In this document: in pieces, positions 8,089 through 29,637 of the stretch
Layout: every line of letters begins with the position of its first letter
Position numbering within the stretch: the first letter of the stretch is position 1
Made by a program: the position numbers and the translations under genes
Notes under the pieces: generated by a model
What the model saw: the letters and a program-made list of their open reading frames with translations, nothing else
The model's database searches: none
What the model was told of the DNA's origin: nothing
Origin: Candidatus Buchananbacteria bacterium RIFCSPHIGHO2_02_FULL_39_17
GTDB taxonomy: Bacteria > Patescibacteriota > Patescibacteriia > Buchananbacterales > UBA6539
Direction of reading: 5' to 3'
Length of the DNA stretch: 45,226 nt
NCBI GenBank assembly: GCA_001817425.1
Contig: MHII01000032.1
Location: 1-45,226 of the forward strand

Positions 8089-11000
8089 ATGATTTCACCA
8101 AAACACAATTCAGTTTTTAAAAAAATAACGAAAAAAGCCGTTTATTTTTTAGTGCTTTTTAATTTGCTTTTCAGTTTGGTCTCGCCGGCTTTGGTCGTGC
8201 CGATTCCAGTGGTTTTGTCGGATTTTAAAATTTCGCGGGCGCAGATTAAGGAATTAGTTTTTAAATTGTTGCTGGCGGATGAGGCCAAGGCGCAGGAAGT
8301 AGGTGCGCCCGGTGATATCGGTTTGGCGCCAGGAGCGCCTGGTGCGGCAGAAGTCACAGCTGCCGGTGGTGGTCTACCTGTTATTGATACCTCGGGCAAT
8401 ATTTTAAAAGGTATAGGTAATGCTTTGCAAAAATCTTTGCATGGTCTTAAAATTGCGTTTGACAAAGCCCAGCAAGGATTAAAAGACGCCTTTTTTACCG
8501 CGGCCAATGAATCATTAAGAAATTTCTTAAACACCATTGCCTATGACACGGCGACCTGGCTCGCGTCCGGGGGCAAGGGGCAGCAGCCGTTATTTTATAC
8601 CCAAGGCTGGGGCGAATACTTAAAAGATTTGGCGGACAGCGCCGCGGGTAACTTCATTGAGCGTTTAGGCGGCGATTGGCTGGACTTTAATGTTTGTAAT
8701 CCTTCATTGCCGAGTTTGAAGCGAAAGATCGGTTTGGGCCTAGCTCAAATTAAGCGGCCGCGCCGGCCGGACTGTAGTGTGACGGAAATGGTCAAAAATT
8801 GGGATCAAGCCATTCAAGATCCGGACTTTTTGCCGAAGTTCAGCGAGATTTTTGATCCTTACCGAAATGACATTGGCATTTCGTTTTCCATTTTTGAGCA
8901 ATATAATGCCGAAAAACAGGCGGCAATCACCGAGGGTACTAAGGACCGGGAAGAAGGCGGCGGGTTCAAGGGAATCGTGGATGCGATTTCCGGTATTATT
9001 AAAACCCCGGCTAATTTAGTCAAGGAATGGGCTACTGAAGCATTAGTTAAGAAATCTTATGAACCGAGCTTGCACCAAATCCAATATGGCCCGATTTTAG
9101 CCGAAGCGATTGGCGTTTTTGTTGATACTTTAACGGGCAAGCTTTTTGAAAAAATTTTTAAACAAGGATTAGTCTCGGCCAAAGACGATAATTTTGACAC
9201 TTCATCGCTTGGCAGTTTTGGCTTAGGTTTTTTGCGCGACTTTTTATCGGCCCGGCGGCCGGGTCAAAATGATTTATATTCCGAAAGCGCGATTGCCGGC
9301 ATCGCGGCGAGAAACGCGGCGCAAGTGAGATTTTTAGATTTTTTGCAATCAGGCAAAAAACAAAATGAACCTTATGACATTTTGTCCAAATTAGCTTTTT
9401 GTCCGGATCCGCAAAATCCCGGACCAGAAGAATGCGTTATTACCCCTTCATTTCGCACGGCCATTGAGCGCGGCTTAACTTTGAAACAGGCAATCGCTCA
9501 AGGCTTTATTAATGGCGATGCTCCCTTTGGCCAACTAACCTATAATGCGGCAGCGATTTATCAGGGCATTCCTTACCGCAGCATTGTCATTTTACGGACG
9601 CACCGGATCGTGCCCGCCACTTGGGAAATCGCCGCGCGCGCGGTTCAGCTATATGACAATAATAAAATTTTGAGTTTAAATGATTTAATCGCTGAATATG
9701 ATCAGGCGGATAGTAAATACCAAGGGTTAATTGATCAAAATTGGGTTTTGGTCGTGCCCGAACATTTATGCAAAGCTGAAGGTTTTGGCGAAAAGATTTT
9801 ATATGAAGAAGCGGTGGCCGGCAATGACGCTAATTTAGACGGCGATTATAATGACCCTGACGATGTCCAGCCGCGGCGTTTAATCGGCCGGGCGGAATAT
9901 TGCGCGGATTTTCAAACTTGTCTGGAAAAAAATCCAGACGGCACTTGCCGTTATTACGGCTATTGCAATGAAGAAAAAAGAATTTGGGATTTGGCCGGCC
10001 AATCCTGCCCGACGCAATTTAACACTTGTACGACTTTTCAGTCGGGGCGCGGCGAAATTGCCAGCTTTTTGAAAAATACTTTGGATTACAACAATTGCAA
10101 CGCGGACAATGCCGGCTGCCAGTGGTATTGCCAAGCCTTTAACCCGATTAACGATATTTGGACCTGCACTAATCAAGACGAGCGGGTTTTAAAGCCTTGT
10201 TTGCAAGCTAACGGCTGTGATTTAAGCGCGAGCTGTGAAATCGCGGCTGGCGGCAGTGCTTGCAGTGATCCGGTGGCGGTGGTGAATTTGGCGATTAATC
10301 AGCCCTGCGGCGAAGGTTCAAAATGGTGGGTGGGCGATAAATGCGTCGTTAATGCCGCTTGTGAAATTCCCCAAAATGGCGTTTCCTGCACGACTAACAG
10401 TTGTAGCGCCTTGCCTAATCTTTTAACTAATAATGGTTTTGAAGCCGGCAATGGCATCAATGCGACTGGCTGGATAGGCGATAATTCTTTTTTTAAACGG
10501 GTTAGCCGGAATTTAAACGATAAGGTCCAAAGCGGCAATTTTAGTTTACGTTTTTATAACGCCGGCGCGGTGATTAGCCCTCAAACCATTATTTCTAATG
10601 CTATTACTTTAACGGCGGGTAAAACTTACACTTTTACCGGTTTTGTTTTTAATAAATTAAATTCCGGGACAATTAAGATTAGCATTGGCGATGGTTCAAA
10701 AATCGTTTCTGACCAGGTTAAAAATGATTGGCAGGAAGTCAGTTTTGATTTTGAAGTTTCTGGTAATCAACCAGTCGCCATTGCCGTCAGCGGTAATGTG
10801 GTTAGCGGCTCAGCTTGGTTTGACGATTTCCGCGTTTCAGAAAACTGCGTGACCAATGCCGTCACCCTGACTTTAATTGGCACGATTGACCAAGACCAAA
10901 GCAAACTCCATTTTGACCGTGATGTCGTTGAGTGCGATCAGTCCGCGGCCGGTTGTTCGCAATTTATCCGGACCAGGCCGAATTTAGGGATAAATTTAAT

Positions 11001-14000
11001 CCCGAACGGCGGTTTTGAAATTCTTGATGAATCAGTTTTCGATCAGGCTAAAGCCTGGCAGTTAAGTATCAATCAAGCCAGCGCGACCAGCACGGCTGAT
11101 CAAATTCACGGCGGCGCCAAAGCCGTTGGCATTGAAATCATTAACCATGGCTCTGATTATACTTATAGTTTTAATCGTGAGAATTTCCTGACTTTAAAAG
11201 CCGGCAAAAAGTATATTTTATCGGCCTATGTTTATGCGACTTATCCGATTCCGGCTTATGTTAATAATTTTTATGAAACTGGCGGCGGTGAATCAAGGGA
11301 TGACTATGATGGTACGGAATTAAATTTAAATCAACGGACAAATCAATGGATTAGGCTGCAAAAAATCTTTACCCCGACTGAAGACCGTTACAATGTTTCG
11401 CCGCAATTGGTCATTGGCGGTAACGTGATTAGTGATGGCAATCAGGGCGTAATTTATGTTGATGATTTTCAGCTGGAAGAAGTGATGCCTGATGTTTTTT
11501 TCCCGACGAATTATAAAGAATACGGTTCAGTTAATTTGACTTATCTCAAAAAACCGCCGGCTTATTTGAATTGTGAACCGCAAGACACTAATCAAAGCGG
11601 TGTCATCGGCGACTGCATTGGTCAGGCGCCAAACGAGATTTGTGATTTACCCGTTCCCTCAGAGTGCGGCAACTACGTTGGAATCTGTCAGCCCGAAGAA
11701 GTTGGTTGCGAAGCTTACCGGCCGGTGCGGGGCGGCGAGACCATCCCCGGGGTAGTGGCTTTTGATGATTACTGCCCAGCCGAGTGTATTGGCTACGAGG
11801 CTTTTAAACAATCTAGTACGGCTTTTGAAACCCAAGAGCCGTTAGCTTATTTCATTCCCCAAACCGCGCGGCAGTGCCAGGCCGCGGCCGTCGGCTGTGA
11901 TGAATTCACTAATTTGGATGAAGTGGCCGCCGGCGGGGAAGGCAAAGCCTATTATCAATTATTGCGGCTTTGCAAAAAGCCGGATGACGTTAATGCCAAT
12001 TGTCAGAATTTCTATAATTGGCAGGGCTCTGACGACACGGGCTATCAGTTGCGGGTCTATAGCCTTTCTGCTGACACCTTTGGCCAGCCTAATCAAGCCA
12101 TCGCTGATTCTGCCCGCTGGCCATCAGTCTGGGGCACGCCTGAGGACTGCAACAGCGCTGATGATTTAGCGACCAATCCTTTTTGTAAAGAATTTTACGG
12201 CTTAGATGGTAGCATCAGTTATCAAATTTTGGAAAACACGATTTCTTGTTCTGCTGATTGCCATCCTTACCGCAAAACCCGTTTAGGCGAAACTGATGAT
12301 GAAGCCCGGAATAATTGTAAAAATACCAATCCGGATTGGCCGACCGACATTAATGGGGTGCTGATTGATAATCCACCCACGAACCCGGTTTGGCAGGGCG
12401 GAGCTTGTATTTATCAAGCCGTGCCTCAAGAAGGCTTGGCTTGCGCGCCCGCAGCCGCGGGTTGCCGCGAGTACCGCGGGAATGCCAGCGGCAATATCTT
12501 TACCGCTTTTGCCGATAATTTTGAAGACGGCGAAATTAGCGGTTGGCGGCATGGTTATATCAGTAATGAAGCTTTGAGTGTGGCTGGTCATTCAATTAAA
12601 AGTCAAGACGTTTCAGGCGGTCGGCGCATTGCTTCAACTTGGGCGGACCTAGGATCTGTTTGCCGTGAAAATTCAGCCTCTTATGATCCAGCGCTTTTTA
12701 AGTGTGCGGCCACTGATCTCGCGGCTACTACTTTGCAGACCTGTTTAGTCAATTTGGGCGAGCAGTATTGCGGTTTGATTAATAATGTTTTACAGTCCCA
12801 AAAAACTTATCTGATGTCTTTTTGGGCAAAAAGTAATTCCGCCAATATTATTGAAGATGTGACGATTGAAATTGCCGAAGACACGCCGTCTCATAGCATT
12901 AATATTGGCACGACCGATTTAACCAGCGAGTGGCGTTATTATTTATTTGGTCCTTTTGTTTATGATTATAACGATGGCACTCAAGCGCCCTGGACTTCCT
13001 CGCGTTTAAGGATCATCGCGCCCGCTGAGGCAACCGCTGATTTTTATGTTGATAATATTAAAATTCAAGAAATCACTAATTATAATTATGTCATTAAAAA
13101 TTCCTGGACCACGCCGGTGAGCTGCGACACTAATCCATTTGTCACACCCGCCATTAGCGCGCCGCAGTTTATGCTCGGCTGCAAGCAATACCGCGATTCC
13201 ACCAATCGGGTCCATAATCTAAAATCGTTTAACCATTTGTGCCGTTTGGAAGCGGTTGGTTGTGAAGCCTTAATTGACACCTTTAATTCAGCCTCGCCGT
13301 TTAGCCAGACTTTTAATGATGGTGACACCACGGGCAACATTAGTCTGCCTGACGATAAATTAGTTTATCTGACTAATCGGTTGGAATTTTCCTGCCAGTC
13401 AAGCGAGAAAGGTTGCCAAGCCCTGGGCTTGCCGGCCATTGATGTGGATGACAATGTCGCGGCCTATCAAACAACTTATTTAGTCAATAATCCCGATAAC
13501 TACAGCCAAATTTTGTGCGCCAGTCCGGAAGTCGGCTGTCAGGAATGGCAAACGCAAACGGGTTTTATTTACTTTAAAGATCCCGGTCCTAAGACTTGTG
13601 AATATAAAAGCGGCCAAAATATCGTCACGGGTTGGTATAAAACTGGTTCAACTTCTGGCCAGCCGGATTGTCCGGTCTTGCAGCCGCCTTTGGGCGAAAT
13701 TCATCCAAACTCTGGCTTTGCCGGTTTGTGCCCTGAGGAATTTAACAGCTGCACCCAGTTTGTTGATCCAATTAGCGAGCAAGCGAAAAACTTAATCTTT
13801 AATTTTGATTTTTCCTTGGATGTTGATGAAAATCAAAAGCCGGATGGCTGGGATATCACAGAAGACCTAGCCAATAATATTACAATTTGGTCGCAGCCGC
13901 TTGAAAAACTTAAGCGCAATACTTTATACACTTTAAGCTTTGTCAGTCAAGATAAGCCGACAACCGGTTTGGCTGTCAGTTTAATCGGTTGTTCCATTAC

Positions 14001-17000
14001 TTCTTTTGATAATTCTTATCCTTTGCAAGGTTATGGCACGGATCAGCGGGAAATTCCTAATCTAACTGACGAGCGGCAATATTCCGGTCGGTTTTTAGTC
14101 GGCGATAATGCCGCCTGCACCTTGCAATTAAGTGCCAGCCAAAATATCCCAAACTTGATTAAAGAAATTGCCATTAAGGAAACCGGGCTTTATTATGATT
14201 TGGAAAACACGGTTGACCAGACGAGCTGTAATGGCTTAGTCAATCCGGAAATCGGTTGTGTTTTGTTTAATGACCGCAGTGCCGTTAATTATAAACTCGG
14301 TGAAGATGATATTTCGTATTTGACTTTTGACGCGGATGTCAGCGGTTCAACGGTCAATAGCGGTTTAGCGGTGACGTCTTGCGCTGGCAACTGCGACAGC
14401 AATACCATTCTTAAAGTCATGCCAGATCGGACTTGTGAATCATTTTTGTACTGCAATACCATGGCGACCATTAAAAAAGATGACGGCACGGAGACTAATT
14501 ATTGCGCCAGTATTGGCGAGTGTAATAATTTAGCCGCTGACGGTTCCTGTGCTAATCCGATTGTGGTCAAAACCAGCGACGCGCCAAAAGATTATTATGA
14601 TTCCGTGGAAGAAGTCAAAAATTTAAGCGGCTATAGTAACGCCGGCGTGCGCTTAAAAACCGGCGACATTATTCCCAGTTTATTTCCTTATGCCCAAATG
14701 ACCGAAGAGGGTGGGGCGACCCGAATCGCCAACGGCAGTTTTGAATTTAATTTTGGCGGCACGAGCGAACCAGTTGGCTGGCAGTCAATTATTATTGGTT
14801 ATTGCACCAATAATTTAAGCGGCGATTATAACCCGCCAACCACCGGCCTAAGAACCTGCACTTTAGATAGAAATTGTTCAAGTGGAGAAACCTGCCGTCT
14901 GCCGGATAGTCCGAGCGAATGGTTTAATTATAAATTTAAAATTGAAAAAGATATCCGTAATTTAATTGAAGGCACAGGTTATCTGCGGCTAAATTCTTTT
15001 TATCAGGCGCAGTCCGAAGAAATTGATGTTGAAAGTGGCGCCACTTATGTTTTATCCGGCTTAATTAATACTTTATATTTAGAGCATCCCATCCAGACCC
15101 CAGAAGCCAGAATTCTTTTCCTTTTTTTGGATGCCAGCAATAATGTCATCCCTACCATTACCTGTCCAATCGTGGATGACGGTTGGTTACAGTGCGCTGA
15201 ATTAAGCAAGATTAGAGGGTTGGGCTGGCAACGAATCACTAAGGAATTCCAAGCGCCGACCGGAGCCAAAAAAATGGTGGTGCGGTTAAGTAATTTTGTT
15301 AATGATCCGGTTTGTATTGGCGCCAAGCGCTATGACAAAAATTCCGGCTGTGAACTTGGCGGCTATTCGCTTTTTGATGATATTTCTTTAAAGCCGGTTT
15401 TAAGGGCGAAAACACCTCGCTTGAACCAAACGGATTTCATCAGCCGCAGTTGCCGTTTGTATCCGACCATTGACGCTTTAGCCTGTAATTTTGTCCGCGA
15501 CGGCAGCATTTATTTTGGCCAGCACGGCTATTGCGTGACTCCTGATCCAGCTAATCCCGGGCAGTGCTTGCAGTGGTGGCCGGTGGATCAGGTTTCCGGG
15601 GAAACTTTGGATGACATTGTGGCCGGCTACAACGACCGCGTGCCGCTGGATTATTGCACGGAAAAAGACCGGCAAAATATCCGGGTCAGCGAAGGCGGAG
15701 TTTTGGCGACATTTGGTGGCAGTTCAAAAGGCGACTTTCAGATCATTGATGATTTAGGCCGTTCCCATGAATTTACTAAGTTTACTATCAATAATGATTA
15801 TCGAGCCTTATTCCGTTATCCGTATGTTGAGAAGTTTAAGTTCCGAGGCGCGGGCATCGGCGTCGCGAATTTTACCGGCACGCCTTTTGTCCTTTTGCCA
15901 TTTTCCTTTACCATGTATAAAGACCATGTTTGCTTCAATATTTTTGATTTTAATGGCGGGCCGCTTGAATTCTTGCTTGGCGGGGGCAGTCGCCTTTCGA
16001 CAAAATCTATATCCTCAAGCAGTGATTCGGTTGATTCAACGTTTGGCACATTATCTGATTTTGTCTCAGGCTTTTTAGGTAATAATCAAGTTGGCTGCGC
16101 TCAAAATGAAGGTATTCGTTTACCCAAAGACACTTTCTTAATTACTGATTGGGGTGAAGACAAAGATGGCGATGGCGTTTTTGAGTTAATTGATAAAGAA
16201 CAATGGGGCGGCTGGGCGGCGATACCAATGGGCATTTCTTTGGGTGATTTTGGCATTGCGGTGGCTTTGCCGATTCCTTACAGTTTAGCTAATTCGCCGG
16301 CCGCCAGCATTATTAATAGTGTTTTGGATCAGCTCGGTGCTCCTAATGATTTTGGTTTTGGTCCGCCGCTTTCGGCTAAAATTGTGACTGATCAAGAAAT
16401 CAACTTGACCGAAGCCAGCACTGATCCGATTCCGGATATGGGCGGGGATATTTTAGGAATTTCTTGGAATATTGGTCAGGCCGACCAATATGTGATGGGC
16501 GCTTTATTGACCGGTTCTATTGTTTCCGAAGTTGGCATTCAATACTGCACCGAATTAGTCCGAACCGTAACTTCTTCAGGCACTAATAAAGGCTATGCCA
16601 ATCGGCTGTCGCAAGGTTCCGGTTATATTTTAGAAGACGTCGTTAATAAAGATTTTAAAGAAAATACCACCGGCGATTTCACTACCAATAAAGACGATTT
16701 TGTTAAATATCGTTATTATGAGCCATTTAATTTTCTTGATTTATTAGCTGATCCGATGAATTATCAGCCGTCTGATTACCAGCCGTTTGGTTCTTTAGTC
16801 TCACCGCAAAACGCCCAATATCCGACCGCTTGGGACGCTAAAGCCAGTCAATACAATCAGCCGCTGTTATATGAGCCGCCGCGCTCGGTTTTCCCGGCGC
16901 CGCATCAGGCGAGAATGGGTGAAATTCATACCACTGAAGGTTTGAAAAATCTTTTTGCCAGAAGTTACGGCATTTGGCATTGGGAATCAAGAAATCCAGA

Positions 17001-17502
17001 TAAATTAACTGACGGCGGACAGTATAAAATTGGGCCTTTGGAAGATGGGGCGGCAACCCAGCTTTGGGATTTGCCGTCAACGCAATGCGTCAGTGACACT
17101 CGCGGCGCCGATGAGTATTGTTTAGTTCTACCGCAAATTCCTTCTGACAATATCAAAATCAACGATAGCGCTTCAGTGACATTGGAAAACGGCGTTGGCT
17201 TAGTTAAATTGAGTTTTACGACTAAAGTTGATCCGGATCAATTGCCGATCACCTCTTACAGTATTAATTGGGGTGACGGCAAAACTAATACAGTTTCGGG
17301 CGTGGTGCTGCGTAATCGGAATAATCCCGAAAATCCGTTTATCTTGTATCATTTGTATGATTACTGGCAGATGAAGGCTGTTTCTACTGGCGGTAATTGC
17401 ACAGACACTGCTTGCACCGCCACGATTAAGATTACAGTGAAAGATAATTGGGACGCGGAGGTGGAAGTTTCCGCCGATAATGCGGTCACCGTGATTCGCT
17501 AA
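8089..17502 (+). CDS. Giant secreted surface protein (3137 aa) with repeated Cys motifs, several jelly-roll/CBM-like modules and a C-terminal PKD-like domain
   Basis: N-terminal signal/TM segment; recurrent C-x(n)-GC-x-x-[YFW] units (QSAAGCSQF, PEEVGCEAY, AAAVGCDEF, PAAAGCREY, LEAVGCEAL, SSEKGCQAL, SPEVGCQEW); recurrent NGxFE...GW modules; ISYSINWGDG-like C-terminus. Confidence 0.85.
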   Translation: MISPKHNSVFKKITKKAVYFLVLFNLLFSLVSPALVVPIPVVLSDFKISRAQIKELVFKLLLADEAKAQEVGAPGDIGLAPGAPGAAEVTAAGGGLPVIDTSGNILKGIGNALQKSLHGLKIAFDKAQQGLKDAFFTAANESLRNFLNTIAYDTATWLASGGKGQQPLFYTQGWGEYLKDLADSAAGNFIERLGGDWLDFNVCNPSLPSLKRKIGLGLAQIKRPRRPDCSVTEMVKNWDQAIQDPDFLPKFSEIFDPYRNDIGISFSIFEQYNAEKQAAITEGTKDREEGGGFKGIVDAISGIIKTPANLVKEWATEALVKKSYEPSLHQIQYGPILAEAIGVFVDTLTGKLFEKIFKQGLVSAKDDNFDTSSLGSFGLGFLRDFLSARRPGQNDLYSESAIAGIAARNAAQVRFLDFLQSGKKQNEPYDILSKLAFCPDPQNPGPEECVITPSFRTAIERGLTLKQAIAQGFINGDAPFGQLTYNAAAIYQGIPYRSIVILRTHRIVPATWEIAARAVQLYDNNKILSLNDLIAEYDQADSKYQGLIDQNWVLVVPEHLCKAEGFGEKILYEEAVAGNDANLDGDYNDPDDVQPRRLIGRAEYCADFQTCLEKNPDGTCRYYGYCNEEKRIWDLAGQSCPTQFNTCTTFQSGRGEIASFLKNTLDYNNCNADNAGCQWYCQAFNPINDIWTCTNQDERVLKPCLQANGCDLSASCEIAAGGSACSDPVAVVNLAINQPCGEGSKWWVGDKCVVNAACEIPQNGVSCTTNSCSALPNLLTNNGFEAGNGINATGWIGDNSFFKRVSRNLNDKVQSGNFSLRFYNAGAVISPQTIISNAITLTAGKTYTFTGFVFNKLNSGTIKISIGDGSKIVSDQVKNDWQEVSFDFEVSGNQPVAIAVSGNVVSGSAWFDDFRVSENCVTNAVTLTLIGTIDQDQSKLHFDRDVVECDQSAAGCSQFIRTRPNLGINLIPNGGFEILDESVFDQAKAWQLSINQASATSTADQIHGGAKAVGIEIINHGSDYTYSFNRENFLTLKAGKKYILSAYVYATYPIPAYVNNFYETGGGESRDDYDGTELNLNQRTNQWIRLQKIFTPTEDRYNVSPQLVIGGNVISDGNQGVIYVDDFQLEEVMPDVFFPTNYKEYGSVNLTYLKKPPAYLNCEPQDTNQSGVIGDCIGQAPNEICDLPVPSECGNYVGICQPEEVGCEAYRPVRGGETIPGVVAFDDYCPAECIGYEAFKQSSTAFETQEPLAYFIPQTARQCQAAAVGCDEFTNLDEVAAGGEGKAYYQLLRLCKKPDDVNANCQNFYNWQGSDDTGYQLRVYSLSADTFGQPNQAIADSARWPSVWGTPEDCNSADDLATNPFCKEFYGLDGSISYQILENTISCSADCHPYRKTRLGETDDEARNNCKNTNPDWPTDINGVLIDNPPTNPVWQGGACIYQAVPQEGLACAPAAAGCREYRGNASGNIFTAFADNFEDGEISGWRHGYISNEALSVAGHSIKSQDVSGGRRIASTWADLGSVCRENSASYDPALFKCAATDLAATTLQTCLVNLGEQYCGLINNVLQSQKTYLMSFWAKSNSANIIEDVTIEIAEDTPSHSINIGTTDLTSEWRYYLFGPFVYDYNDGTQAPWTSSRLRIIAPAEATADFYVDNIKIQEITNYNYVIKNSWTTPVSCDTNPFVTPAISAPQFMLGCKQYRDSTNRVHNLKSFNHLCRLEAVGCEALIDTFNSASPFSQTFNDGDTTGNISLPDDKLVYLTNRLEFSCQSSEKGCQALGLPAIDVDDNVAAYQTTYLVNNPDNYSQILCASPEVGCQEWQTQTGFIYFKDPGPKTCEYKSGQNIVTGWYKTGSTSGQPDCPVLQPPLGEIHPNSGFAGLCPEEFNSCTQFVDPISEQAKNLIFNFDFSLDVDENQKPDGWDITEDLANNITIWSQPLEKLKRNTLYTLSFVSQDKPTTGLAVSLIGCSITSFDNSYPLQGYGTDQREIPNLTDERQYSGRFLVGDNAACTLQLSASQNIPNLIKEIAIKETGLYYDLENTVDQTSCNGLVNPEIGCVLFNDRSAVNYKLGEDDISYLTFDADVSGSTVNSGLAVTSCAGNCDSNTILKVMPDRTCESFLYCNTMATIKKDDGTETNYCASIGECNNLAADGSCANPIVVKTSDAPKDYYDSVEEVKNLSGYSNAGVRLKTGDIIPSLFPYAQMTEEGGATRIANGSFEFNFGGTSEPVGWQSIIIGYCTNNLSGDYNPPTTGLRTCTLDRNCSSGETCRLPDSPSEWFNYKFKIEKDIRNLIEGTGYLRLNSFYQAQSEEIDVESGATYVLSGLINTLYLEHPIQTPEARILFLFLDASNNVIPTITCPIVDDGWLQCAELSKIRGLGWQRITKEFQAPTGAKKMVVRLSNFVNDPVCIGAKRYDKNSGCELGGYSLFDDISLKPVLRAKTPRLNQTDFISRSCRLYPTIDALACNFVRDGSIYFGQHGYCVTPDPANPGQCLQWWPVDQVSGETLDDIVAGYNDRVPLDYCTEKDRQNIRVSEGGVLATFGGSSKGDFQIIDDLGRSHEFTKFTINNDYRALFRYPYVEKFKFRGAGIGVANFTGTPFVLLPFSFTMYKDHVCFNIFDFNGGPLEFLLGGGSRLSTKSISSSSDSVDSTFGTLSDFVSGFLGNNQVGCAQNEGIRLPKDTFLITDWGEDKDGDGVFELIDKEQWGGWAAIPMGISLGDFGIAVALPIPYSLANSPAASIINSVLDQLGAPNDFGFGPPLSAKIVTDQEINLTEASTDPIPDMGGDILGISWNIGQADQYVMGALLTGSIVSEVGIQYCTELVRTVTSSGTNKGYANRLSQGSGYILEDVVNKDFKENTTGDFTTNKDDFVKYRYYEPFNFLDLLADPMNYQPSDYQPFGSLVSPQNAQYPTAWDAKASQYNQPLLYEPPRSVFPAPHQARMGEIHTTEGLKNLFARSYGIWHWESRNPDKLTDGGQYKIGPLEDGAATQLWDLPSTQCVSDTRGADEYCLVLPQIPSDNIKINDSASVTLENGVGLVKLSFTTKVDPDQLPITSYSINWGDGKTNTVSGVVLRNRNNPENPFILYHLYDYWQMKAVSTGGNCTDTACTATIKITVKDNWDAEVEVSADNAVTVIR

Positions 17503-17672: not shown

Positions 17673-17775
17673 ACCCGCCTGCCTACGCCTTATAAATTTA
17701 CTTAAATACAAATAATAGGGCAAGGGAAAATAAATTATTTATGAGAAAAAGTAGGGACGGCATTGGCGGGCAGGT
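17673..17775 (+). mobile_element. MITE-like element family B, copy 1
   Basis: ACCCGCCTGCC...GGGCAAGGGAAAATAAATTATTTATGAGAAAAAGTAGGGACGGCATTGGCGGGCAGGT; near-identical to 43985-44087. Confidence 0.8.
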
Positions 17776-18139
17776 AAGCACCAATAATCAAAATTCAAAA
17801 CGCTACGATTTAGAAGATAGAACCTTGGAATTTGGAAAAAGAATAATCAGATTGTGTCAAAATCTGCCGAAAAATGGGATTAATTTTAAACTCATCGATC
17901 AGATAATCCATTCAGGCGCTTCAATCGGTGCGAATTACCGAGAAGCCAATGAAACCGAAACCAAGAAAGATTTTCAATTTAGAATCAGAATTTGCCGAAA
18001 AGAAACTAAAGAAACAACTTATTGGCTGCAGCTAATCCCCGAAGCTAATCCGACTTTAACCGAAAAAATCAATCCTTTGATTCAAGAAACTAAGGAGCTA
18101 ATCAAAATCTTTGCCGCTATTCTGGAAAAGACTAAATAA
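17741..18139 (+). CDS. Four-helix-bundle (IVS / S23-like) protein
   Basis: RTLEFGKRIIRLCQNLP...LIDQIIHSGASIGANYREANETETKKDFQFRIRICRKETKETTYWLQLI is characteristic of the family. Confidence 0.9.
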   Translation: MRKSRDGIGGQVSTNNQNSKRYDLEDRTLEFGKRIIRLCQNLPKNGINFKLIDQIIHSGASIGANYREANETETKKDFQFRIRICRKETKETTYWLQLIPEANPTLTEKINPLIQETKELIKIFAAILEKTK

Positions 18140-18302: not shown

Positions 18303-21300
18303 TTGGCTGGAGTTTTGGTCTTGTTTTTAGTTGTGGGGATTTTGGGGATTAGTCAGAATATTTTTGCTGCACCTCCTATTATAATACCAACAGCTGCGGA
18401 TCATGACCGTGACGGATATTCTAATGTGTTTGAGAGGGCAAATGGGTCTGACCCAGAGGATGCGCAAAGCATTCCTATAGACACAACAACAGGTTTACCA
18501 TTAAAGCAGGATCAGTCCTCAACAGATCAAAATGCTAAGCCAAAAAATGATCAGCCGTTTGAAAGTTTCTTTGTTGATATACTTGGGGTATTTGTTGGTT
18601 GGATTATTGGTCTGCTAGGATCACTGATCACGCTGTTAGCCGGCGCTTTAGCTAAATTGATGGCGTATAATGACTTTATTAAAGCGTCAGCAGTTCAGAC
18701 TGGCTGGACAATAGTTCGTGATGTTTCTAATTTATTTTTTGTTTTGATTTTATTAATTATTGCCATTGGCACAATTTTAAGGATTGAGAATTACAGTTTC
18801 AAAAAATTATTGCCCAAAGTCATTATTATGGCGGTTTTGGTTAATTTCAGCAAGACCATTGCCGGCTTAATCATTGATTTTGCCCAAGTGGTGATGATGA
18901 CTTTTGCCGCTAGCTTCATTGCTATAATATCGGGTAATTTGTTTGGAACATTACATATTCAAGATATTATTCAGCAGGGTAAAGAGGCGGCTCAAAGTTC
19001 AGGTGAGGATATTGGCTTTATCAATCTAGCGGTTACAGGATTAATTGCCATATTAATGTTGATAGTGGCCGCTATGGTTATTTTAGTGATTTTGGTAGTA
19101 ATTTTAATGAGAATGATAATGCTTTGGATTTTAGTTGTCCTTTCGCCTTTGGCTTATATTTTAGCGGCTTTTCCCCAAGGCCAGAGATATGCCCAGCAGT
19201 GGTGGCAGGAATTTAGCAAGTATGTGATTATTGGTCCGGTTTTGGCTTTTTTCCTTTGGCTTTCTTTTTCAATCGCTGGCGAAGGTGGGGCAATTAGAGT
19301 CAATGAACTTCAACAGGAGCAAGTCCAGAATCTTAATGGAGTTGCACAGTCGTCTGGCGTTGATGCCAGAATATTCACTGGTATTGGTAACATTGATAAT
19401 TTTCTTTCTTATATTATTGGTATTGGTATGTTAATGGGTGCTTTGATGATCACCCAGCAAATGGGCGTGGCGGGCGGCAGTTTTGCCGGATCAATGTTTA
19501 ACCGGATTAGACAGGGTGGATTAGTGATGTTAAAGGCACCATTTGCACCAATCAGAGGAGCGGCAAAGCTTGGCTGGAAAGGTATTAAAGCTGGACGTGA
19601 CGTTGGTCTAGAAGTTCTTGGTGCTAGAACCGGTATTGAATTAAGGCCAAGTAAGTGGAAAGAGGGTTGGGAAACTAGTCGGAAAAAACACCGCGAAGAA
19701 AGAGAATATGAGATGTACAAAACAGCTTCAAGGCGGGAGGGTTTATTTGGGGCTTTGGCAACACCCGGGCATGCTTTCACGACTTATTATCGTTTAACCG
19801 GTCGTGAGGGTCGGCCAAGTGGCTTTCGTAAAATTTATGATGAGGGCTTTGCTGGCGGTAAATATATAAAAAATGTTGAACAGCTTGAGGCGGCCGAGGC
19901 TAACCAAAGAAGGGCTAAAATAGCCTTAGATAACGGGGATCTTTATGAAGCAGGTCTTAAATTTAAAACCGGTGAGAGGTTTGAAGAGTTCCTTAAAAGG
20001 GCCCCAGAAGATTTATCTGAAGAAGAAAAGAAAAATGCTTTTCAGGGAATAGAAAATAGGGTTAAACGAGAATTTAGTGATCGCCCCGAAGAATTAGTGG
20101 ATATCACCAAAGATAAAATGAAAAGCGAAGCCCAAGAATTAGAAATCAAGGCTCAAGCTCTAATGAACGGTGACTTTAGTGATAATCAAAAACAGAAAAG
20201 AAGTGATGTGTTGGCAGCAAAAAGAAATGAACAGATAGAATTGCAGCGAGTCATTGCAATAAAAAATCGTAATAAAGAGGATACAACTAAGGAGCAGCAA
20301 TTATTAAAAGCAATCAAGGATGAAATTAAAAATTTAAGTCAGCTAAAACCGACCGCCGAAGAAAGAAAAGAAAATAAAGAAATTAACGCTAAGGAGATTG
20401 GTAATTATCTTCAGCAGACCCAAGATATTCGTATGGTTGCTGATCAACCATTGAGATCAGAAATTGAAAGAAAATCAGACTATGAATCAGCAAGCCGTAC
20501 TGTTGATGAACTCGGCAAAATAATTGCGGAGACGAGGCCAGAAGTTAATTATGAATTAAGGCGACAGCAACGATTGGCGATTGCACAAGAAAAAAAGGAT
20601 ATGACGACTGACAGTTCTGATGAATTAATTAGTATTTTTGAGGATGCCAAGAAAAACGGTGATGTCAATCGGATGGGCGCTGCCCTGTTGCGTTTGACAG
20701 AAACTGCCAATGAAAACGAAATTTTTAATACTTATGGTTATCGGAGCGATGCTCTGGGTTTGAAAGATCTTACTTATGAGCAATTAGTTGGCAAGCGCGG
20801 TATGAGCCGACAAAGAGCAAATCAATTAGGCTATGACTATGATAAATTATCAGAGGGAGGAATGTCTGAGGAGCAGGCTTTAGCCTTGGCTAATGATATC
20901 AGTTATGCCGCGGAAGACATTAATCATTGGCAAGTGGCTCGGGCGGTCGGAATTAAAAATGGACGTCAGGTTTTTCAGGATGAAGATGATCGATTAATTG
21001 AGGTAATGGCGGAAACCAGAAAAACGGATTTTGAAAATTTTCTTCGTCGTTCAAACCGTTTAGCCTTTGGCTATGAGGTTCCAGAAGGTGCAACTCGCGA
21101 AGAACGGGCGGCTAATTTTAGGCGTACGGGGAAAAGGGAATTTTTCAATTCACCTTTTGGTTTGGCTTTTTTTAGAGAACACGCGCCAAAATTTGAAAAG
21201 AGGCTTGATGCTGGACGCTTTAATGTCAATTGGGCAATTAATTTGAGCTCTAAAACCGGCAGACCAGAAGTTGAAGACTTAATTAATAAAATGCCGGAAC

Positions 21301-21446
21301 AAGAAAGGATTATTGCCCAAAGAATCTATAATCTTATTAATCAATTCGCCGGTGAAGAACAAGGTAAAGATCCATTTGGTGACCTTAAGCGGATTATTTC
21401 TGATGTTAAAACTGGCCAGATTGGCGGCAAAACAAGGCGCGAGTAA
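18303..21446 (+). CDS. VirB6/TrbL-like polytopic membrane protein with a long charged C-terminal soluble domain; TTG start, true start uncertain
   Basis: TSP3-like HDRDGYSNVFERANGSDPEDA near the N-terminus, many TM helices (~residues 90-400), GGSFAGSMFNRIRQGG, then ~600 charged coiled-coil-like residues. AAAAAAGGA precedes the TTG. Confidence 0.75.
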   Translation: MAGVLVLFLVVGILGISQNIFAAPPIIIPTAADHDRDGYSNVFERANGSDPEDAQSIPIDTTTGLPLKQDQSSTDQNAKPKNDQPFESFFVDILGVFVGWIIGLLGSLITLLAGALAKLMAYNDFIKASAVQTGWTIVRDVSNLFFVLILLIIAIGTILRIENYSFKKLLPKVIIMAVLVNFSKTIAGLIIDFAQVVMMTFAASFIAIISGNLFGTLHIQDIIQQGKEAAQSSGEDIGFINLAVTGLIAILMLIVAAMVILVILVVILMRMIMLWILVVLSPLAYILAAFPQGQRYAQQWWQEFSKYVIIGPVLAFFLWLSFSIAGEGGAIRVNELQQEQVQNLNGVAQSSGVDARIFTGIGNIDNFLSYIIGIGMLMGALMITQQMGVAGGSFAGSMFNRIRQGGLVMLKAPFAPIRGAAKLGWKGIKAGRDVGLEVLGARTGIELRPSKWKEGWETSRKKHREEREYEMYKTASRREGLFGALATPGHAFTTYYRLTGREGRPSGFRKIYDEGFAGGKYIKNVEQLEAAEANQRRAKIALDNGDLYEAGLKFKTGERFEEFLKRAPEDLSEEEKKNAFQGIENRVKREFSDRPEELVDITKDKMKSEAQELEIKAQALMNGDFSDNQKQKRSDVLAAKRNEQIELQRVIAIKNRNKEDTTKEQQLLKAIKDEIKNLSQLKPTAEERKENKEINAKEIGNYLQQTQDIRMVADQPLRSEIERKSDYESASRTVDELGKIIAETRPEVNYELRRQQRLAIAQEKKDMTTDSSDELISIFEDAKKNGDVNRMGAALLRLTETANENEIFNTYGYRSDALGLKDLTYEQLVGKRGMSRQRANQLGYDYDKLSEGGMSEEQALALANDISYAAEDINHWQVARAVGIKNGRQVFQDEDDRLIEVMAETRKTDFENFLRRSNRLAFGYEVPEGATREERAANFRRTGKREFFNSPFGLAFFREHAPKFEKRLDAGRFNVNWAINLSSKTGRPEVEDLINKMPEQERIIAQRIYNLINQFAGEEQGKDPFGDLKRIISDVKTGQIGGKTRRE

Positions 21447-21458
21447 TTTTAATTAATT

Positions 21459-22802
21459 ATGATGGCAGACAAAAATATAACAAAAAATAGCGATCAAATA
21501 GTATTAACCGATTTAGCCAATCCACAAGTTTTGACTAAGTACAGCGATTATATTAAGTATTTATTGAAGTACGATTTTATTAATGAGGCAAACGATCTCC
21601 GGGTATCATTACCAATTTTGCTGGAACAAAAAGATAATTTATCTCGGATTGCGCCTGATTTTTTATCACAGTATAGGCACATTGCTATTTTAGCTAAATT
21701 TATTACTCTGTCAGTTCTTTCAAATCGCGAGGTAATAGACCTAATTGAAAATAATTTATCAGAAGCTTTAGTTGAACCAGATTTAATTCTTACGGATAAA
21801 ATTAAAGCAAAAATCGTAACCATAATGATTCCTGCCGATCGAGACATTTTTAAAAGAGAATTGCGCGAAGCAATGTTAAGGAATAATCAATTAATAACTA
21901 GTAAAAATATTGTTGTTGATGGCGTCACTAGAGAGCCAACCATAGGTAATTGGATTAAAGATTATAATAAAGATGTTGGCGCGGCTCAAGCAGAACAAAT
22001 AAATAAAATCCAATATTTAACAACGAGTGATAATACAAAAATTTTAGTTAGCCAAGAAAAAAATAAAATTGAAACCCTAATTAATATTTACGAAAATTTA
22101 AAAAAATCTTCAACTACGCCAGAGGGTGCGGAAGAGGTTGTGCCTTATTATCAGGATAATCAACACTATGTTCTAAGGGAGGGTAAATTAGAATTAATAA
22201 AACCCGATAAGATTTTATTAAGTATTTTAGAAGGTAAACCGGTTAGCGAAATCAATATTGAGACAGGAAAAAAATATGAGGTTCCCGTGATAAGAGAGGA
22301 AGCCATTTTTTCGGCTGATAGAGACATTTTAATTGCCTACCAAGGCGATCCGAAGCAAGCTAAAGCCATTGCTGCTGAACAGGATAAATTAAACAAAAGC
22401 TTTGGCGGCGATTTGGCGAAATTACGGCAGGAGTTTTTTGCCGCCGTGCAGAAAAAAAACGTTAACCGAACCATTGCCTGCCTGCGCTTATTAACAGAAA
22501 AAAATGATTTGGAAAATTTTTTACGCCAAGACGAAAAACTGCGCCAGTTTTTGTTGGTGACTTGGGAAAAACAATATGGCGCTGATTTTGCCGCCCAATT
22601 TAGGCAAAATCCGACCCAAATTAAATTTGTCCGGTTGTTTTTACGCTATATTTTAGAGGAGCGACTAACTATGCCCGCCAGCGAAGCCGCGCGAGTGGGG
22701 CTGCAATTGGCAAATATTTTTGTCAAAGCCGGCAAAAAAAGTTATAATAAAATGGCGTACTTTGATGTGAAGGATAAATTGTTTCATTGGTTCAGTGATT
22801 AA
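21459..22802 (+). CDS. Hypothetical protein in the T4SS-like locus
   Basis: Long ORF 12 bp after the VirB6-like gene; no motif recognised. Confidence 0.75.
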   Translation: MMADKNITKNSDQIVLTDLANPQVLTKYSDYIKYLLKYDFINEANDLRVSLPILLEQKDNLSRIAPDFLSQYRHIAILAKFITLSVLSNREVIDLIENNLSEALVEPDLILTDKIKAKIVTIMIPADRDIFKRELREAMLRNNQLITSKNIVVDGVTREPTIGNWIKDYNKDVGAAQAEQINKIQYLTTSDNTKILVSQEKNKIETLINIYENLKKSSTTPEGAEEVVPYYQDNQHYVLREGKLELIKPDKILLSILEGKPVSEINIETGKKYEVPVIREEAIFSADRDILIAYQGDPKQAKAIAAEQDKLNKSFGGDLAKLRQEFFAAVQKKNVNRTIACLRLLTEKNDLENFLRQDEKLRQFLLVTWEKQYGADFAAQFRQNPTQIKFVRLFLRYILEERLTMPASEAARVGLQLANIFVKAGKKSYNKMAYFDVKDKLFHWFSD

Positions 22803-24258: not shown

Positions 24259-25464
24259 ATGGCTTCGGCAAACCAAAATCAAAACAATCCTGATGATTTC
24301 TTCCGTCCATTAGAAGAACAAAAGCAGCAGGCGAAAATGGCGGCTGACGAGATTATTTTTCGCGATGAAGCCGGTAAATTAAAAATTTTAAAGGACGGGG
24401 AGGTTTTAGATTTTGAGGAAAATAAAAGTCAAATCGGGCGAACTTTTCAATCCGGAGTCGAGGGTAAAAGTCGGGGGATTAATTTGGCAAAAGAGCCAGC
24501 CGTTGCCGTTAAAGCGCTACCGTCTAAGCCGTTAATTATTTTTGATGAAAAATTTCAGCGGCGAAATATTGATCGTGAACTTGAAGAAATTATCAAAAAT
24601 TCTGGCATTACTTTTTCTGATGAAAATTTAGTCAAACGTTTTCGTAATGTGGTTAGCTCGCGGCTCAAGGAAGTGCGGGATCAGATTCAGGCCCGGGAAA
24701 TACTTTTGTCTTCACCGGCGATGGGCGGAATTGGTCTGAACGCCCAAAGCGCGGATCGGGTTTTGACTTTGATTAATCAACAACTGGAGCAGATGAATGG
24801 TAAATTAAGAAATCAAGTGAGCGCCGAGTCGTTTGCCGACTTGCACTTAGCCGTTAAAGGTCTTTTAGCCCAGCCCCTGCCCAAGCCGCCGCCAATTGTT
24901 TTTAGCCCAAAAAATGAGTCGGTAATAAAGCAAAATATTTTTTCTGAACCGCCAAAAGTAATGCCGAAAATTTTGGAAAAACCAATGGTTGAAATTCCTT
25001 CAATGCCAGTTATTAGTCCAAAACCAGCTAACCGATCAATGCCAGAAAACAATTTGACCGAGTCAGTGACCGTTTATCGACCAGCGCCAAAGCCTTTGAC
25101 GCAAAAACCGAAGATTCAAGACATTCGGTTTGAGCCGCGCTTGACCGGTCCGGTGGAGGAAATTAAAACCATGACTTTAGATGATTTTCGACGGTTGGCG
25201 CCGACCCCGGTTTTAGCCATTGAAAAAATCTTAGAAAAAATTCAGCTTTTGGAGCAGGAATCTTTTACGAAAAAAGTAGCGGCCATTAAAAGTTGGAAAG
25301 AAAACAAAATTAGCCGGCTTTATTTTGAACTAGGTGAGCAAAGCATGGAAGAAAAAAAACCCATCACTGAAATTATTGCCCGCCGCCAAGCCCAAGGACA
25401 GCCGATTTTGACGGTGGAGGAATTAGAAGCAGTCATTGAATTAAACCAGAGATTAAGATATTAA
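24259..25464 (+). CDS. Hypothetical proline-rich cytoplasmic protein in the T4SS-like locus
   Basis: 401-aa ORF with Lys/Pro-rich centre; position between metK and prgI. Confidence 0.7.
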   Translation: MASANQNQNNPDDFFRPLEEQKQQAKMAADEIIFRDEAGKLKILKDGEVLDFEENKSQIGRTFQSGVEGKSRGINLAKEPAVAVKALPSKPLIIFDEKFQRRNIDRELEEIIKNSGITFSDENLVKRFRNVVSSRLKEVRDQIQAREILLSSPAMGGIGLNAQSADRVLTLINQQLEQMNGKLRNQVSAESFADLHLAVKGLLAQPLPKPPPIVFSPKNESVIKQNIFSEPPKVMPKILEKPMVEIPSMPVISPKPANRSMPENNLTESVTVYRPAPKPLTQKPKIQDIRFEPRLTGPVEEIKTMTLDDFRRLAPTPVLAIEKILEKIQLLEQESFTKKVAAIKSWKENKISRLYFELGEQSMEEKKPITEIIARRQAQGQPILTVEELEAVIELNQRLRY

Positions 25465-25546: not shown

Positions 25547-26005
25547 ATGCAGCAATTTGTCGTGCCTCAATTCATTGACGTTGAAGATAAAGTCATCGGT
25601 CCGATTACGGTCCGGCAATTTATTATTATGCTGGCGGGCGGCGGTTTAACCTTTATCGCTTATAAGCTTTCTGATTTTGTGCTTTTTCTCATTCAGCTAG
25701 TGTTTATTTTGCTTGTTACTTTTATTATTGCTTTTGTGAAAATTAACGGCCGGCCGATTCATTATTTTTTGCTTAATATTTTTCAAACATTCAAACGGTC
25801 GCGAGTCAGAGTTTGGCAAAAATTTTATTCCAAGAGCGAATTGCGCCAATATACTAAAGAAAAAATTGCTGTTTTGCCGCCGCTGATTCGGACCAGAAAT
25901 AAAGTCAGAGCTTCGCGGTTGGCCGAGCTTTCCTTAATTGTTGATACCGGCGGAGTTTACCAGGGAGAAAAAGAACCACCGAATACTAATCACCAATTGG
26001 TGTGA
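25547..26005 (+). CDS. PrgI family membrane protein (T4SS component)
   Basis: MQQFVVPQFIDVEDKVIGPITVRQFIIMLAGGGLTFIAYKL with two TM segments. Confidence 0.85.
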   Translation: MQQFVVPQFIDVEDKVIGPITVRQFIIMLAGGGLTFIAYKLSDFVLFLIQLVFILLVTFIIAFVKINGRPIHYFLLNIFQTFKRSRVRVWQKFYSKSELRQYTKEKIAVLPPLIRTRNKVRASRLAELSLIVDTGGVYQGEKEPPNTNHQLV

Positions 26006-26355: not shown

Positions 26356-27036
26356 ATGAAGTCTCCTAAATTAGCCAATAAAAAAGTTACTGCTTCTACC
26401 CAGCATCATTTAGATATTGCGGAAATTAAAGAGGACTGTGTGCTTTTGAAAGATGGGACATTGCGAGCCGTGCTTTTGGTTTCCAGTATTAATTTTTCGC
26501 TGAAATCAGAAGATGAGCAAAACGCGATTATCGCGGCCTACATTGGCTTTTTGAATTTTTTGGAGTTTCCCCTGCAGATTGTCATTCAGTCGCGCCGATT
26601 GGATATTGACGGTTATTTGGAGCGGCTGAAAAAAATTGAAAAAGAACAAACCAACGAACTTTTGCGGATGCAAACCACCGAGTACCGCCAGTATGTCAGT
26701 GAATTAGTTGAAATTGGCGATATTATGACAAAAAGGTTTTATGTCATTGTGCCTTATGACCCTCTCTCGGATAGACAAAAATCTTGGTGGAAGCGGCTTT
26801 TCGGTTTGTTCGCGGCGGCAAAAGACGTTAAGCTTAGCCAGCAGGATTTTATCAAACGCCGCCATGCTTTATTCCAGCGCGTTGAACATATTGTCTCGGG
26901 ATTAGCCTCAATGAGTCTAAAGTCGGTGCTTTTAGACACTCAAAGCTTGATTGAACTCTATTATAATACTTATAATCCGGATATTTATAATAAAGAAAAA
27001 TTAGTGGAAATTGATAAATTAAGAGTAGAAGAATGA
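26356..27036 (+). CDS. TraC/VirB4 N-terminal-like T4SS protein
   Basis: HHLDIAEIKEDCVLLKDGTLRAVLLVSSINFSLKSEDEQNAIIAAYIGFLNFLEFPLQIVIQSRRLDIDGYLERL. Confidence 0.8.
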   Translation: MKSPKLANKKVTASTQHHLDIAEIKEDCVLLKDGTLRAVLLVSSINFSLKSEDEQNAIIAAYIGFLNFLEFPLQIVIQSRRLDIDGYLERLKKIEKEQTNELLRMQTTEYRQYVSELVEIGDIMTKRFYVIVPYDPLSDRQKSWWKRLFGLFAAAKDVKLSQQDFIKRRHALFQRVEHIVSGLASMSLKSVLLDTQSLIELYYNTYNPDIYNKEKLVEIDKLRVEE

Positions 27037-27123: not shown

Positions 27124-29019
27124 ATGGCGATTAAACCCTCAGATTTATTCAAAAAACAAAATCAAGGCATGCCTGGGATTGTTTTGCCGTCCAAGGAGAT
27201 TTCTGCTCAAGAGAAGAAAGAGTTGGAGGCAGAAAAAATAATTTTAGAAGAAGAGCGGATTTACCGCGAGGGCGTCGTTTCGGTTAAAGATTTAATCTCG
27301 CCCGCGGCTTTAGCCGTGACGCCGACTTTTCTCAAATTGGGGGATAAGTTTTTGCGCACGCTTTTTGTTATCAGTTATCCGCGCTATATCGCGGTTGGTT
27401 GGTTTGCGCCGATTATTAATTTGAGCGTGACCCTTGACATCTCCATGTTTTTTTATCCGGTTAAAGCTAATATTATTTTAAAACAATTGCGCAATAAAGT
27501 CGGCGCTTTAGAAGCTCAAATTTTGTCGGATCGGGAAAAAGGCGCGCCGCGCGATCCGATTCGCGAAACGGCTTTGCGCGATATTGAAAAACTCCGCGAT
27601 GATTTAACCCAAGGGGTGGAACATTTTTTTCAATTCGGCCTTTATGTGACGCTTTATGCCAACAGCAAAGAAGAACTTGACAATTTGACCGGCGATATTG
27701 AATCGCTCTTTGGCTCGCGCTTGGTTTTCTCCAAAAAAGTTTTATACCAGGCCGAGCAGGGTTTTAACTCAACTTTGCCGTTGGGCAATGATGAACTGAT
27801 GATTGGCTTTAATATGAATTCTTCGCCAGTTGCTTCCTCATTTCCTTTTATTTCGTCAGAGCTTACTTCTGATGAAGGAATTTTATACGGCATTAATCGC
27901 CATAATAACAGCTTGATTTTATTTGATCGTTTTTCGTTGCAAAACGCCAACACTGTGGTTTTTGCCACCTCCGGTGCCGGTAAAAGTTATGCCATTAAGT
28001 TGGAAGTTTTGCGGACATTGATGTTTGGCACAGACGTTTTAGTCATTGATCCGGAACGCGAATATAAGCATTTATGCGATGCCGTGGGCGGCACTTACAT
28101 TAATATTTCGCTTAGTTCGGAGAGTAAAATTAATCCCTTTGATTTGCCCCGGCCAATGGGCGAACAAAAAACGGCTGATATCATCCGTGGCTCGGTTATT
28201 ACCATTAAAGGATTAATCCGTTTAATGTTAGGCAAATTGACTCATCAGGAAGATTCAATTATTGATCGGGCGCTTTTGGAAACTTACGCGAAAAAAGACA
28301 TCACTTCCGACTCCGATTTAACTAAAGCTGAAGCGCCAATTATGCAGGATTTCCAAGATGTTTTGGAAGGAATGGAAGGCGGTGCGGATTTATCCTTAAG
28401 ATTAAAAAAATACACGCAAGGCACTTTTGCCGGGTTATTCAACAGCCCGACCAATGTTGATACCAAAAATCAGTTGGTGGTTTTTTCGGTGCGTGACTTG
28501 GAAGACGAATTGCGTCCCATGGCCATTTATATGATTGTTAATTATATTTGGAACGTGGTTCGTTCGGAACTGAAAAGAAGAATTTTAATTATTGATGAAG
28601 CGTGGTGGCTGATGCAAAACGAAGACTCGGCAAAATTCATCTACGCTTTGGTCAAACGTTGCCGTAAATATTATCTGGGGGTGACTAATATTACCCAAGA
28701 CGTCAATGACTTTTTACTTTCACCTTACGGTCAGGCGATTGTTAATAACTCGGCTTTACAGCTTTTGATGCGTCAGTCGCCTGCGGCAATTGATCTGGTG
28801 CAAAAGACTTTTCTTTTAACGGAAGGCGAAAAATATCTGCTTTTGGAGTGCGGCGTGGGTGAGGGCATCTTTTTTGCCGGTGACAAACATGCGGCGATTA
28901 AAGTGGTTGCTTCTTACACTGAAGATCAACTGATTACCTCTGATCCGCGCCAGATTTTGGAAATTGAGGAAGCCAAACGCGAATTTGACCGGTCAATGGC
29001 GGCAAGAAAGGAAGAATAA
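27124..29019 (+). CDS. virB4: VirB4-family T4SS ATPase
   Basis: Walker A FATSGAGKSYAIKLE, DVLVIDPEREYKHLCDAVGGTYINIS, Walker B RRILIIDEAWWLMQ. Confidence 0.95.
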   Translation: MAIKPSDLFKKQNQGMPGIVLPSKEISAQEKKELEAEKIILEEERIYREGVVSVKDLISPAALAVTPTFLKLGDKFLRTLFVISYPRYIAVGWFAPIINLSVTLDISMFFYPVKANIILKQLRNKVGALEAQILSDREKGAPRDPIRETALRDIEKLRDDLTQGVEHFFQFGLYVTLYANSKEELDNLTGDIESLFGSRLVFSKKVLYQAEQGFNSTLPLGNDELMIGFNMNSSPVASSFPFISSELTSDEGILYGINRHNNSLILFDRFSLQNANTVVFATSGAGKSYAIKLEVLRTLMFGTDVLVIDPEREYKHLCDAVGGTYINISLSSESKINPFDLPRPMGEQKTADIIRGSVITIKGLIRLMLGKLTHQEDSIIDRALLETYAKKDITSDSDLTKAEAPIMQDFQDVLEGMEGGADLSLRLKKYTQGTFAGLFNSPTNVDTKNQLVVFSVRDLEDELRPMAIYMIVNYIWNVVRSELKRRILIIDEAWWLMQNEDSAKFIYALVKRCRKYYLGVTNITQDVNDFLLSPYGQAIVNNSALQLLMRQSPAAIDLVQKTFLLTEGEKYLLLECGVGEGIFFAGDKHAAIKVVASYTEDQLITSDPRQILEIEEAKREFDRSMAARKEE

Positions 29020-29058: not shown

Positions 29059-29637
29059 ATGTCTCGCAGAAAAAAGATAATTATCATTACTATCATTGTC
29101 ATTGTCGTTTTGCTTTTAATTATCGGCTTATTCTGGTGGTTTTGGCAGAAAAAACCGTCACCAATGGCAACGAACACTAATCAGGGATTACAAATTCCGG
29201 ACGATGTGGTTAGGCCGTCAGCCGATTTAAACACTAATGTCCCGCCCGGGCAAGCTAAACTAGAAGCGGAGCTAAAGGCCATAGCTATGACTTTTGCTGA
29301 ACGGTTTGGCAGTTATTCCAACGAGAGTAATTTTTCCAACCTTGATGATTTGAAAAGTTTAATGACGATTCGGATGAAAGCTTGGGCGGAAAGTTATAAG
29401 GCGGAAAAATCGAATGATTTAACCGCGTCTGACTACTCGGGGGTGACGACACAAGCGCTATCAGCCGAAATTCAAGATTTAGATGAAAGTATTGGCCGAG
29501 CTGAAATTTTAGTTAATACTCAAAGGCGGCAAGCTCAAGGCAACCCGATTAATCCAGAGGTTTATTATCAAAAATTAAAACTGCGTTTGGTAAAAAGCGG
29601 TGAGGGCTGGAAAGTTGATAGTGCGGAATGGCAGTAA
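29059..29637 (+). CDS. Hypothetical membrane-anchored protein
   Basis: N-terminal TM helix (IIIITIIVIVVLLLIIGLFWWFW), soluble domain; follows virB4. Confidence 0.7.
   Translation: MSRRKKIIIITIIVIVVLLLIIGLFWWFWQKKPSPMATNTNQGLQIPDDVVRPSADLNTNVPPGQAKLEAELKAIAMTFAERFGSYSNESNFSNLDDLKSLMTIRMKAWAESYKAEKSNDLTASDYSGVTTQALSAEIQDLDESIGRAEILVNTQRRQAQGNPINPEVYYQKLKLRLVKSGEGWKVDSAEWQ

Follow-up and report, generated by a model that had tools for sequence, protein, structure and literature searches.

The window, the whole stretch of DNA that was analysed (45,226 nucleotides of Candidatus Buchananbacteria bacterium RIFCSPHIGHO2_02_FULL_39_17), contains at positions 8089-17502 of the forward strand one uninterrupted frame encoding a protein of 3137 amino acids, referred to below as the giant protein. 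As mapped in Table 1, its gene forms part of a run with the order RsmA - TSP3p - giant - VirB6 - X447 - (MetK) - Y401 - PrgI - TrsD - VirB4 - single-TM protein - ComF. This arrangement holds throughout the taxonomic order and in the majority of 20 loci compared class-wide. MetK, a SAM synthetase encoded at 22919-24094 (+), lies inside the T4SS run, and this position, too, is kept across the order. TSP3p matches Pfam TSP3_bac at 5e-5, just below cut-off. The VirB6-like protein carries an N-terminal TSP3-like motif and a long C-terminal extension; the VirB6-like proteins of relatives are very variable in length (820-2082 aa) and have long C-terminal extensions as well. The preliminary description had placed the giant gene ahead of the VirB6-like gene with a four-helix cassette between them, and this was borne out, the cassette being a gene of the 23S_rRNA_IVP type. 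Both genes of this type that flank the giant gene are absent at these positions in most relatives and are insertions in the present genome; similar genes are scattered in T4SS loci of other genomes. At the contig edge, positions 2-1021 (+) of the window encode a reverse transcriptase in which a GNLTSQ motif and YADD are present; the enzyme resembles those of the DGR type, and among named families it agrees best with group II-like and defence reverse transcriptases. DGR diversification of the giant gene was rejected since the window contains no TR/VR-like repeat; given the position of the reverse transcriptase at the contig edge, a template repeat could be off-contig.

Table 1. Features of the giant protein and of the surrounding locus (window coordinates)
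Feature	Position	Strand	Residues (aa)	Basis and remarks
TSP3p	6664..7488	+		Single TM segment; TSP3 repeats; helical motif LTPxQ(I/V)R, repeated
Second four-helix 23S_rRNA_IVP-type copy	7551..7892	+		Other flank of giant gene
N-terminal hydrophobic export signal	8125..8223	+	13-45	Hydropathy
Conserved N-terminal domain	8356..9888	+	90-600	Alignment; no Pfam match
Cys-rich block 1	9886..10404	+	600-772	19 Cys
Jelly-roll 1 (CBM_4_9)	10408..10854	+	774-922	Pfam and Foldseek; lineage-specific
Jelly-roll 2	10984..11493	+	966-1135	HHalign to jelly-roll 1, 98.8%
Cys-rich block 2	11536..12483	+	1150-1465	Repeated C-x6-GC units
Jelly-roll 3	12508..13080	+	1474-1664	Profile comparison; model matches to CBM22, CBM16
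Cys-rich block 3	13111..13788	+	1675-1900	Among least gapped blocks class-wide
Jelly-roll 4	13795..14226	+	1903-2046	HHalign to jelly-roll 2, 93%; lineage-specific
Cys-rich block 4	14227..14688	+	2047-2200	
Jelly-roll 5	14701..15396	+	2205-2436	In nearly all homologues; sequence profiles only
Cys-rich block 5	15421..15678	+	2445-2530	
Variable region	15676..17073	+	2530-2995	
C-terminal WGDG domain	17074..17499	+	2996-3137	Alignment; PKD-like by motif only
Four-helix 23S_rRNA_IVP-type gene	17741..18139	+		Between giant and VirB6
VirB6-like (TrbL) polytopic protein	18303..21446	+		PF04610, 1.3e-6; TM
X447, conserved T4SS-locus protein	21459..22802	+		No Pfam/NCBIfam match
Y401, conserved T4SS-locus protein	24259..25464	+		No Pfam/NCBIfam match
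PrgI (VirB3-like)	25547..26005	+		PF12666, 1.2e-8
TrsD-like protein	26356..27036	+		NF041427, 1.4e-6, below cut-off
VirB4 ATPase	27124..29019	+		NF045971, 1.1e-105, above cut-off
Single-TM protein, possible VirB8-like component	29059..29637	+		TM, sequence only; conserved position

Cys-rich blocks and jelly-roll blocks alternate along the giant protein, in keeping with the earlier claim that Cys-repeat units and jelly-roll modules are paired in a single frame of this length. The claimed number of at least ten C-x(n)-GC-x-x-[YFW] units also held: the pattern C-x(5-14)-GC-x-x-[YFWL] matched 10 times, at 9 distinct GC sites in a protein with 94 cysteines in total, against a chance level of 0.41 on average and 4 at maximum in 1000 shuffles. 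The expected five or so CBM-like modules were likewise recovered, five by profile comparison and three stretches by Pfam CBM_4_9, the sole Pfam family in the protein (E 8e-13; 49.4 bits at a cut-off of 25.9 bits), which was also matched in 12 of 14 homologues at E <= 0.5. Jelly-rolls 1-4 resemble one another (93-99% by HHalign where pairs match best); jelly-roll 5 reached only 57% alone, yet the same module was recovered in many homologues. The C-terminus, described before as PKD-like, retains a conserved WGDG...H-x-Y motif, but no Pfam PKD match was obtained there in six homologues up to an E-value of 5. The variable region contains one weak hydrophobic stretch (aa 2711-2729), which is not conserved within the class.

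That the modules are predicted to be jelly-rolls was indicated not only by Pfam and HHalign but also by Foldseek on AlphaFold models covering aa 76-960 and aa 1150-2160. The latter model has a mean pLDDT of 79, with values mostly of 80-95 in Cys-rich block 2; in the N-terminal model, most blocks of aa 426-640 are of good confidence, and aa 76-425 are poorly modelled, so that its first 350 residues are unreliable. The modelled jelly-rolls match CBM4, CBM16, CBM22 and CBM61 structures (CBM4-2, CBM16 and CBM61 at E about 1e-7 for jelly-roll 1; a CBM22 tandem for jelly-roll 4), and also phage minor tail or CenC-like proteins. Jelly-roll 2 additionally matched NCBIfam GTA_spike_fiber, a phage spike-fibre domain, at 4.9e-5, below cut-off. 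Sequence search of solved structures in the PDB with the giant protein gave no match, no catalytic domain was recognised with Pfam and NCBIfam or in homologues, and neither database returned a T4SS subunit match in 14 homologues.

Conservation is concentrated on the cysteines. Among seven order-level homologues, 76 of the 94 cysteines are invariant as compared with 11% of all columns, and when 27 homologues from the whole class are compared, cysteine accounts for 44 of the 78 positions without variation. No homologue lacks the Cys blocks; the jelly-rolls number from 2 to 5 and are less conserved, and the C-terminal 600 residues vary strongly. A hydrophobic N-terminus acting as an export signal is present in all 27 homologues, most of them with an AxA-type site, which supports the initial assignment as a surface protein. 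The suggestion that it might face DNA is disfavoured by the acidic net charge of every homologue (-25 to -257; 27/27). None of the 27 has a lipobox, and no conserved C-terminal anchor was found among them; LPxTG is absent from the giant protein, and in the three homologues that contain the string once there is no sorting signal at the end. A wall-anchored adhesin or lipoprotein was thus rejected for want of a C-terminal LPXTG or lipobox, and retention at the surface is therefore an assumption. A multihaem cytochrome or nanowire was also rejected, as CxxCH does not occur in any of the 27 homologues. With respect to oxidative folding, a DsbA-like thioredoxin was found in 57/57 ABY1 genomes, with four in the present genome. 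VKOR occurs in 23 of 57 class genomes and is absent here, for which reason it was rejected as an oxidase partner common to the whole class. Its absence leaves the Dsb-like protein of the present genome without a recognised oxidase to recharge it, and this counts against the reading favoured below.

The present genome assembly comprises 1.14 Mb. This genome and its named relatives (Buchananbacteria, Falkowbacteria, Uhrbacteria, Kerfeldbacteria and Kuenenbacteria) we take, from the names of the latter, to be members of ABY1, a class of the ultrasmall Patescibacteria. Profile search with the N-terminal domain found the giant protein in 172 of 192 class genomes (156 of 167 good ones), mostly as a single frame of 2,500-4,000 aa, and in a phylum-wide sample (n = 287) all 22 matches fell in ABY1 with none in about 265 genomes of other classes. 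The giant gene is a single-copy core gene of ABY1. No homologue was found in plasmid and phage collections (tblastn with aa 1150-2160) or IMG/VR contigs, and within these collections a mobile-element protein is therefore rejected. One contig (G045, C2) has two equally scoring giant matches, at 645652 and 694304, in opposite orientation and flanking two VirB4 copies, possibly an assembly duplication.

Given that both the giant protein and VirB4 are near-universal, their co-occurrence is uninformative and was dropped as an argument. VirB4 lies downstream of the giant gene, on the same strand and no more than 41 kb away, in 60 of the 61 genomes that have the two genes on a single contig. Because contig sharing favours close pairs, we restricted the comparison to near-closed genomes of at most 10 contigs, and here VirB6, PrgI, TrsD and VirB4 are downstream of the giant gene in 24 of 32 (binomial chance about 2.5e-33, ignoring relatedness). 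The linkage to VirB6, PrgI and VirB4 is strong, but it is not the constant one that was to be checked: in 8/32 the giant gene is away from VirB4, several of these genomes belonging to one family. Of the two outcomes that would have told against the preliminary description, homologues scattered apart from any T4SS and modules that fail prediction as jelly-rolls, neither was obtained. TSP3p is almost always directly upstream of the giant gene: it precedes it in 20/20 class loci and in 70 of the 73 named loci that offer room on that side, the median gap being 12 bp, and it stays with the giant gene in the unlinked cases inspected (G033, G073, G067 and G097). It is the most constant neighbour, and there is a weak resemblance between its TSP3 part and MtsD, a protein of cell cohesion. 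In a separate one-contig genome (G141; L051/L052), the giant and VirB6 genes are followed by a frame of 5715 aa or more; no VirB4 was detected in this genome.

The position upstream of VirB6 is occupied beyond ABY1. In about half of 20 VirB4 loci from other classes, the gene immediately ahead of VirB6, or nearly so, encodes a secreted protein (280-1,959 aa); RsmA and TSP3p often come before it, and several of these proteins are Cys-rich. In one such locus (L141), a stand-alone secreted protein of 280 aa is homologous to the first part of the N-terminal domain of the giant protein (E 4e-13; HHalign 97.5%); it was not found in the six other genomes of its own class. No homology of the other slot proteins to the giant protein was detectable beyond this one and, weakly, that of L160. 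Secreted T4SS-locus proteins of unrelated appearance were seen at L147:6397-10011 and L150:5711-9979 and as a 1959-aa frame on the reverse strand of L152; such proteins of other classes include ones of 1204 aa with 58 Cys, 1422 aa with 40 Cys and 1959 aa with 27 Cys. The slot thus extends beyond ABY1, and the giant protein looks like an elaboration that arose in ABY1.

With the export signal, the cysteine invariance, the jelly-rolls, the class-wide conservation and the genomic linkage established by computation, the reading to which we incline, and to which we give an even chance, is that the giant protein is an extracellular, glycan-binding scaffold or adhesin of the type IV secretion apparatus of ABY1-class Patescibacteria. 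It would be exported by Sec and folded with the aid of many disulfide bonds, and the N-terminal domain together with the TSP3p membrane protein would probably keep it on the cell surface close to the VirB6 channel. The fixed cysteine framework may then form a rigid stalk or scaffold, from which the two to five CBM-like jelly-rolls could bind surface glycans of a partner cell; such binding would bring the secretion channel into contact with the host and keep it there. We favour this reading because a class-wide core gene linked to the T4SS combines invariant cysteines with variable CBM-like jelly-rolls, because DsbA-like thioredoxins occur in all 57 ABY1 genomes tested and secreted proteins of other classes, one of them homologous to the N-terminal domain, fill the same VirB6 slot, and because a study on the Patescibacteria T4SS, which is of the known MPF_FATA type, reports no adhesins and none of the PrgB type (PMC12102498). 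Ca. Southlakia epibionticum reportedly cannot grow as an epibiont without its T4SS (PMC10633639), and another report proposes large Cys-rich secreted proteins of Peribacteria for attachment (PMC4736985). The constancy of the scaffold points to a component of a machine, the variability of the jelly-rolls to ligands that change. Against an adhesin, a scaffold so highly conserved would be less usual for a fast-evolving adhesin than for part of a machine; against glycan binding, CBM-like folds are not always sugar binders, and binding by the jelly-rolls here is putative; and against a role in the T4SS stand the 8/32 near-closed genomes just mentioned. The original proposal of an adhesin of an episymbiont secretion apparatus therefore gains from the locus linkage, the ABY1 assignment and the published T4SS of the phylum, and loses from a linkage that is not universal.

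It is possible, if somewhat unlikely, that the giant protein instead serves its own envelope as a conduit or sheath, a T4SS part crossing the cell wall and the S-layer or capsule of the epibiont, with the jelly-rolls bound to its own polysaccharide. A collinear scaffold with near-invariant cysteines class-wide is what one would expect of a machine part, the gene is single copy, and outer-membrane core components are not associated with the Patescibacteria T4SS (PMC12102498). Moreover, as no anchor of its own was found, binding to own glycan would explain retention. Gain and loss of jelly-rolls, which are less conserved than the Cys blocks, fit variable external ligands better, however, and the C-terminal 600 residues are strongly variable too. 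Less probable still is a general ABY1 surface or attachment protein paired with TSP3p that, in a compact genome, neighbours the T4SS without functional connection. The TSP3p-giant pair does stay intact where VirB6 and VirB4 are elsewhere, including several genomes of one family, and the run also includes RsmA and MetK, which clearly have nothing to do with secretion; yet the arrangement is kept in 24/32 near-closed genomes from many families, and another class has a homologue of the N-terminal domain in the equivalent slot. That the T4SS exports the giant protein to the host as a substrate or effector, which a large protein encoded in its locus might be, is very improbable in view of the own N-terminal export signal of all homologues and the single conserved architecture with no catalytic domain recognised.

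Going beyond the scaffold or adhesin reading, one may speculate, tentatively and with rather low confidence, that in a class of Patescibacteria a single giant protein, a rigid, disulfide-stapled extracellular stalk with exchangeable glycan-binding jelly-rolls, built on an older N-terminal slot domain found on its own in another class, replaced the pilus or outer core of the T4SS. The family bears on how Patescibacteria recognise and dock to hosts, and on how their T4SS can make its way to another cell when no adhesins or outer core parts are known for it. It is a specific, near-universal ABY1 candidate for an extracellular T4SS part, its modules are separable and lend themselves to expression and to assays of binding to glycans or cells, TSP3p, giant and VirB6 together provide a simple genomic marker, and the family offers a point of comparison with the slot proteins of other classes.

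Among known proteins, the CBM_4_9 superfamily (CBM4, CBM16, CBM22, CBM61) has the jelly-roll fold and the sequence profile in common with the giant protein, whose modules differ in that a Cys-rich scaffold surrounds them, no enzyme being recognised, and in that sugar binding is putative. Weak structural matches of the aa 1150-2160 model to Reelin and ELAPOR1-type extracellular proteins (about 10% identity, TM-scores near 0.1) are an analogy only, possibly arising because Cys-rich segments alternate with jelly-rolls. Adhesins that fix the partner cell are known from conjugative T4SSs, namely PrgB in Gram-positive bacteria and the Cys-rich TraN in F-type systems. The role suggested for the giant protein is similar by functional analogy only: it is much larger, restricted to ABY1 and without LPXTG, and 14 homologues gave no Pfam match to the TraN and PrgB families up to E 0.5. 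Our literature search, outside of which most subscription journals lie, found no paper describing the giant family. The Peribacteria proteins, compared by description only, are given neither a T4SS link nor a jelly-roll architecture in the accessible portion of that report; they are likewise large, secreted and Cys-rich and come from the same phylum (PMC4736985). Finally, the published MPF_FATA-type system of Patescibacteria, in the accessible portion of whose description the giant gene and TSP3p are not named as components, is encoded by the same locus, with VirB6, PrgI/VirB3, TrsD and VirB4 (PMC12102498).
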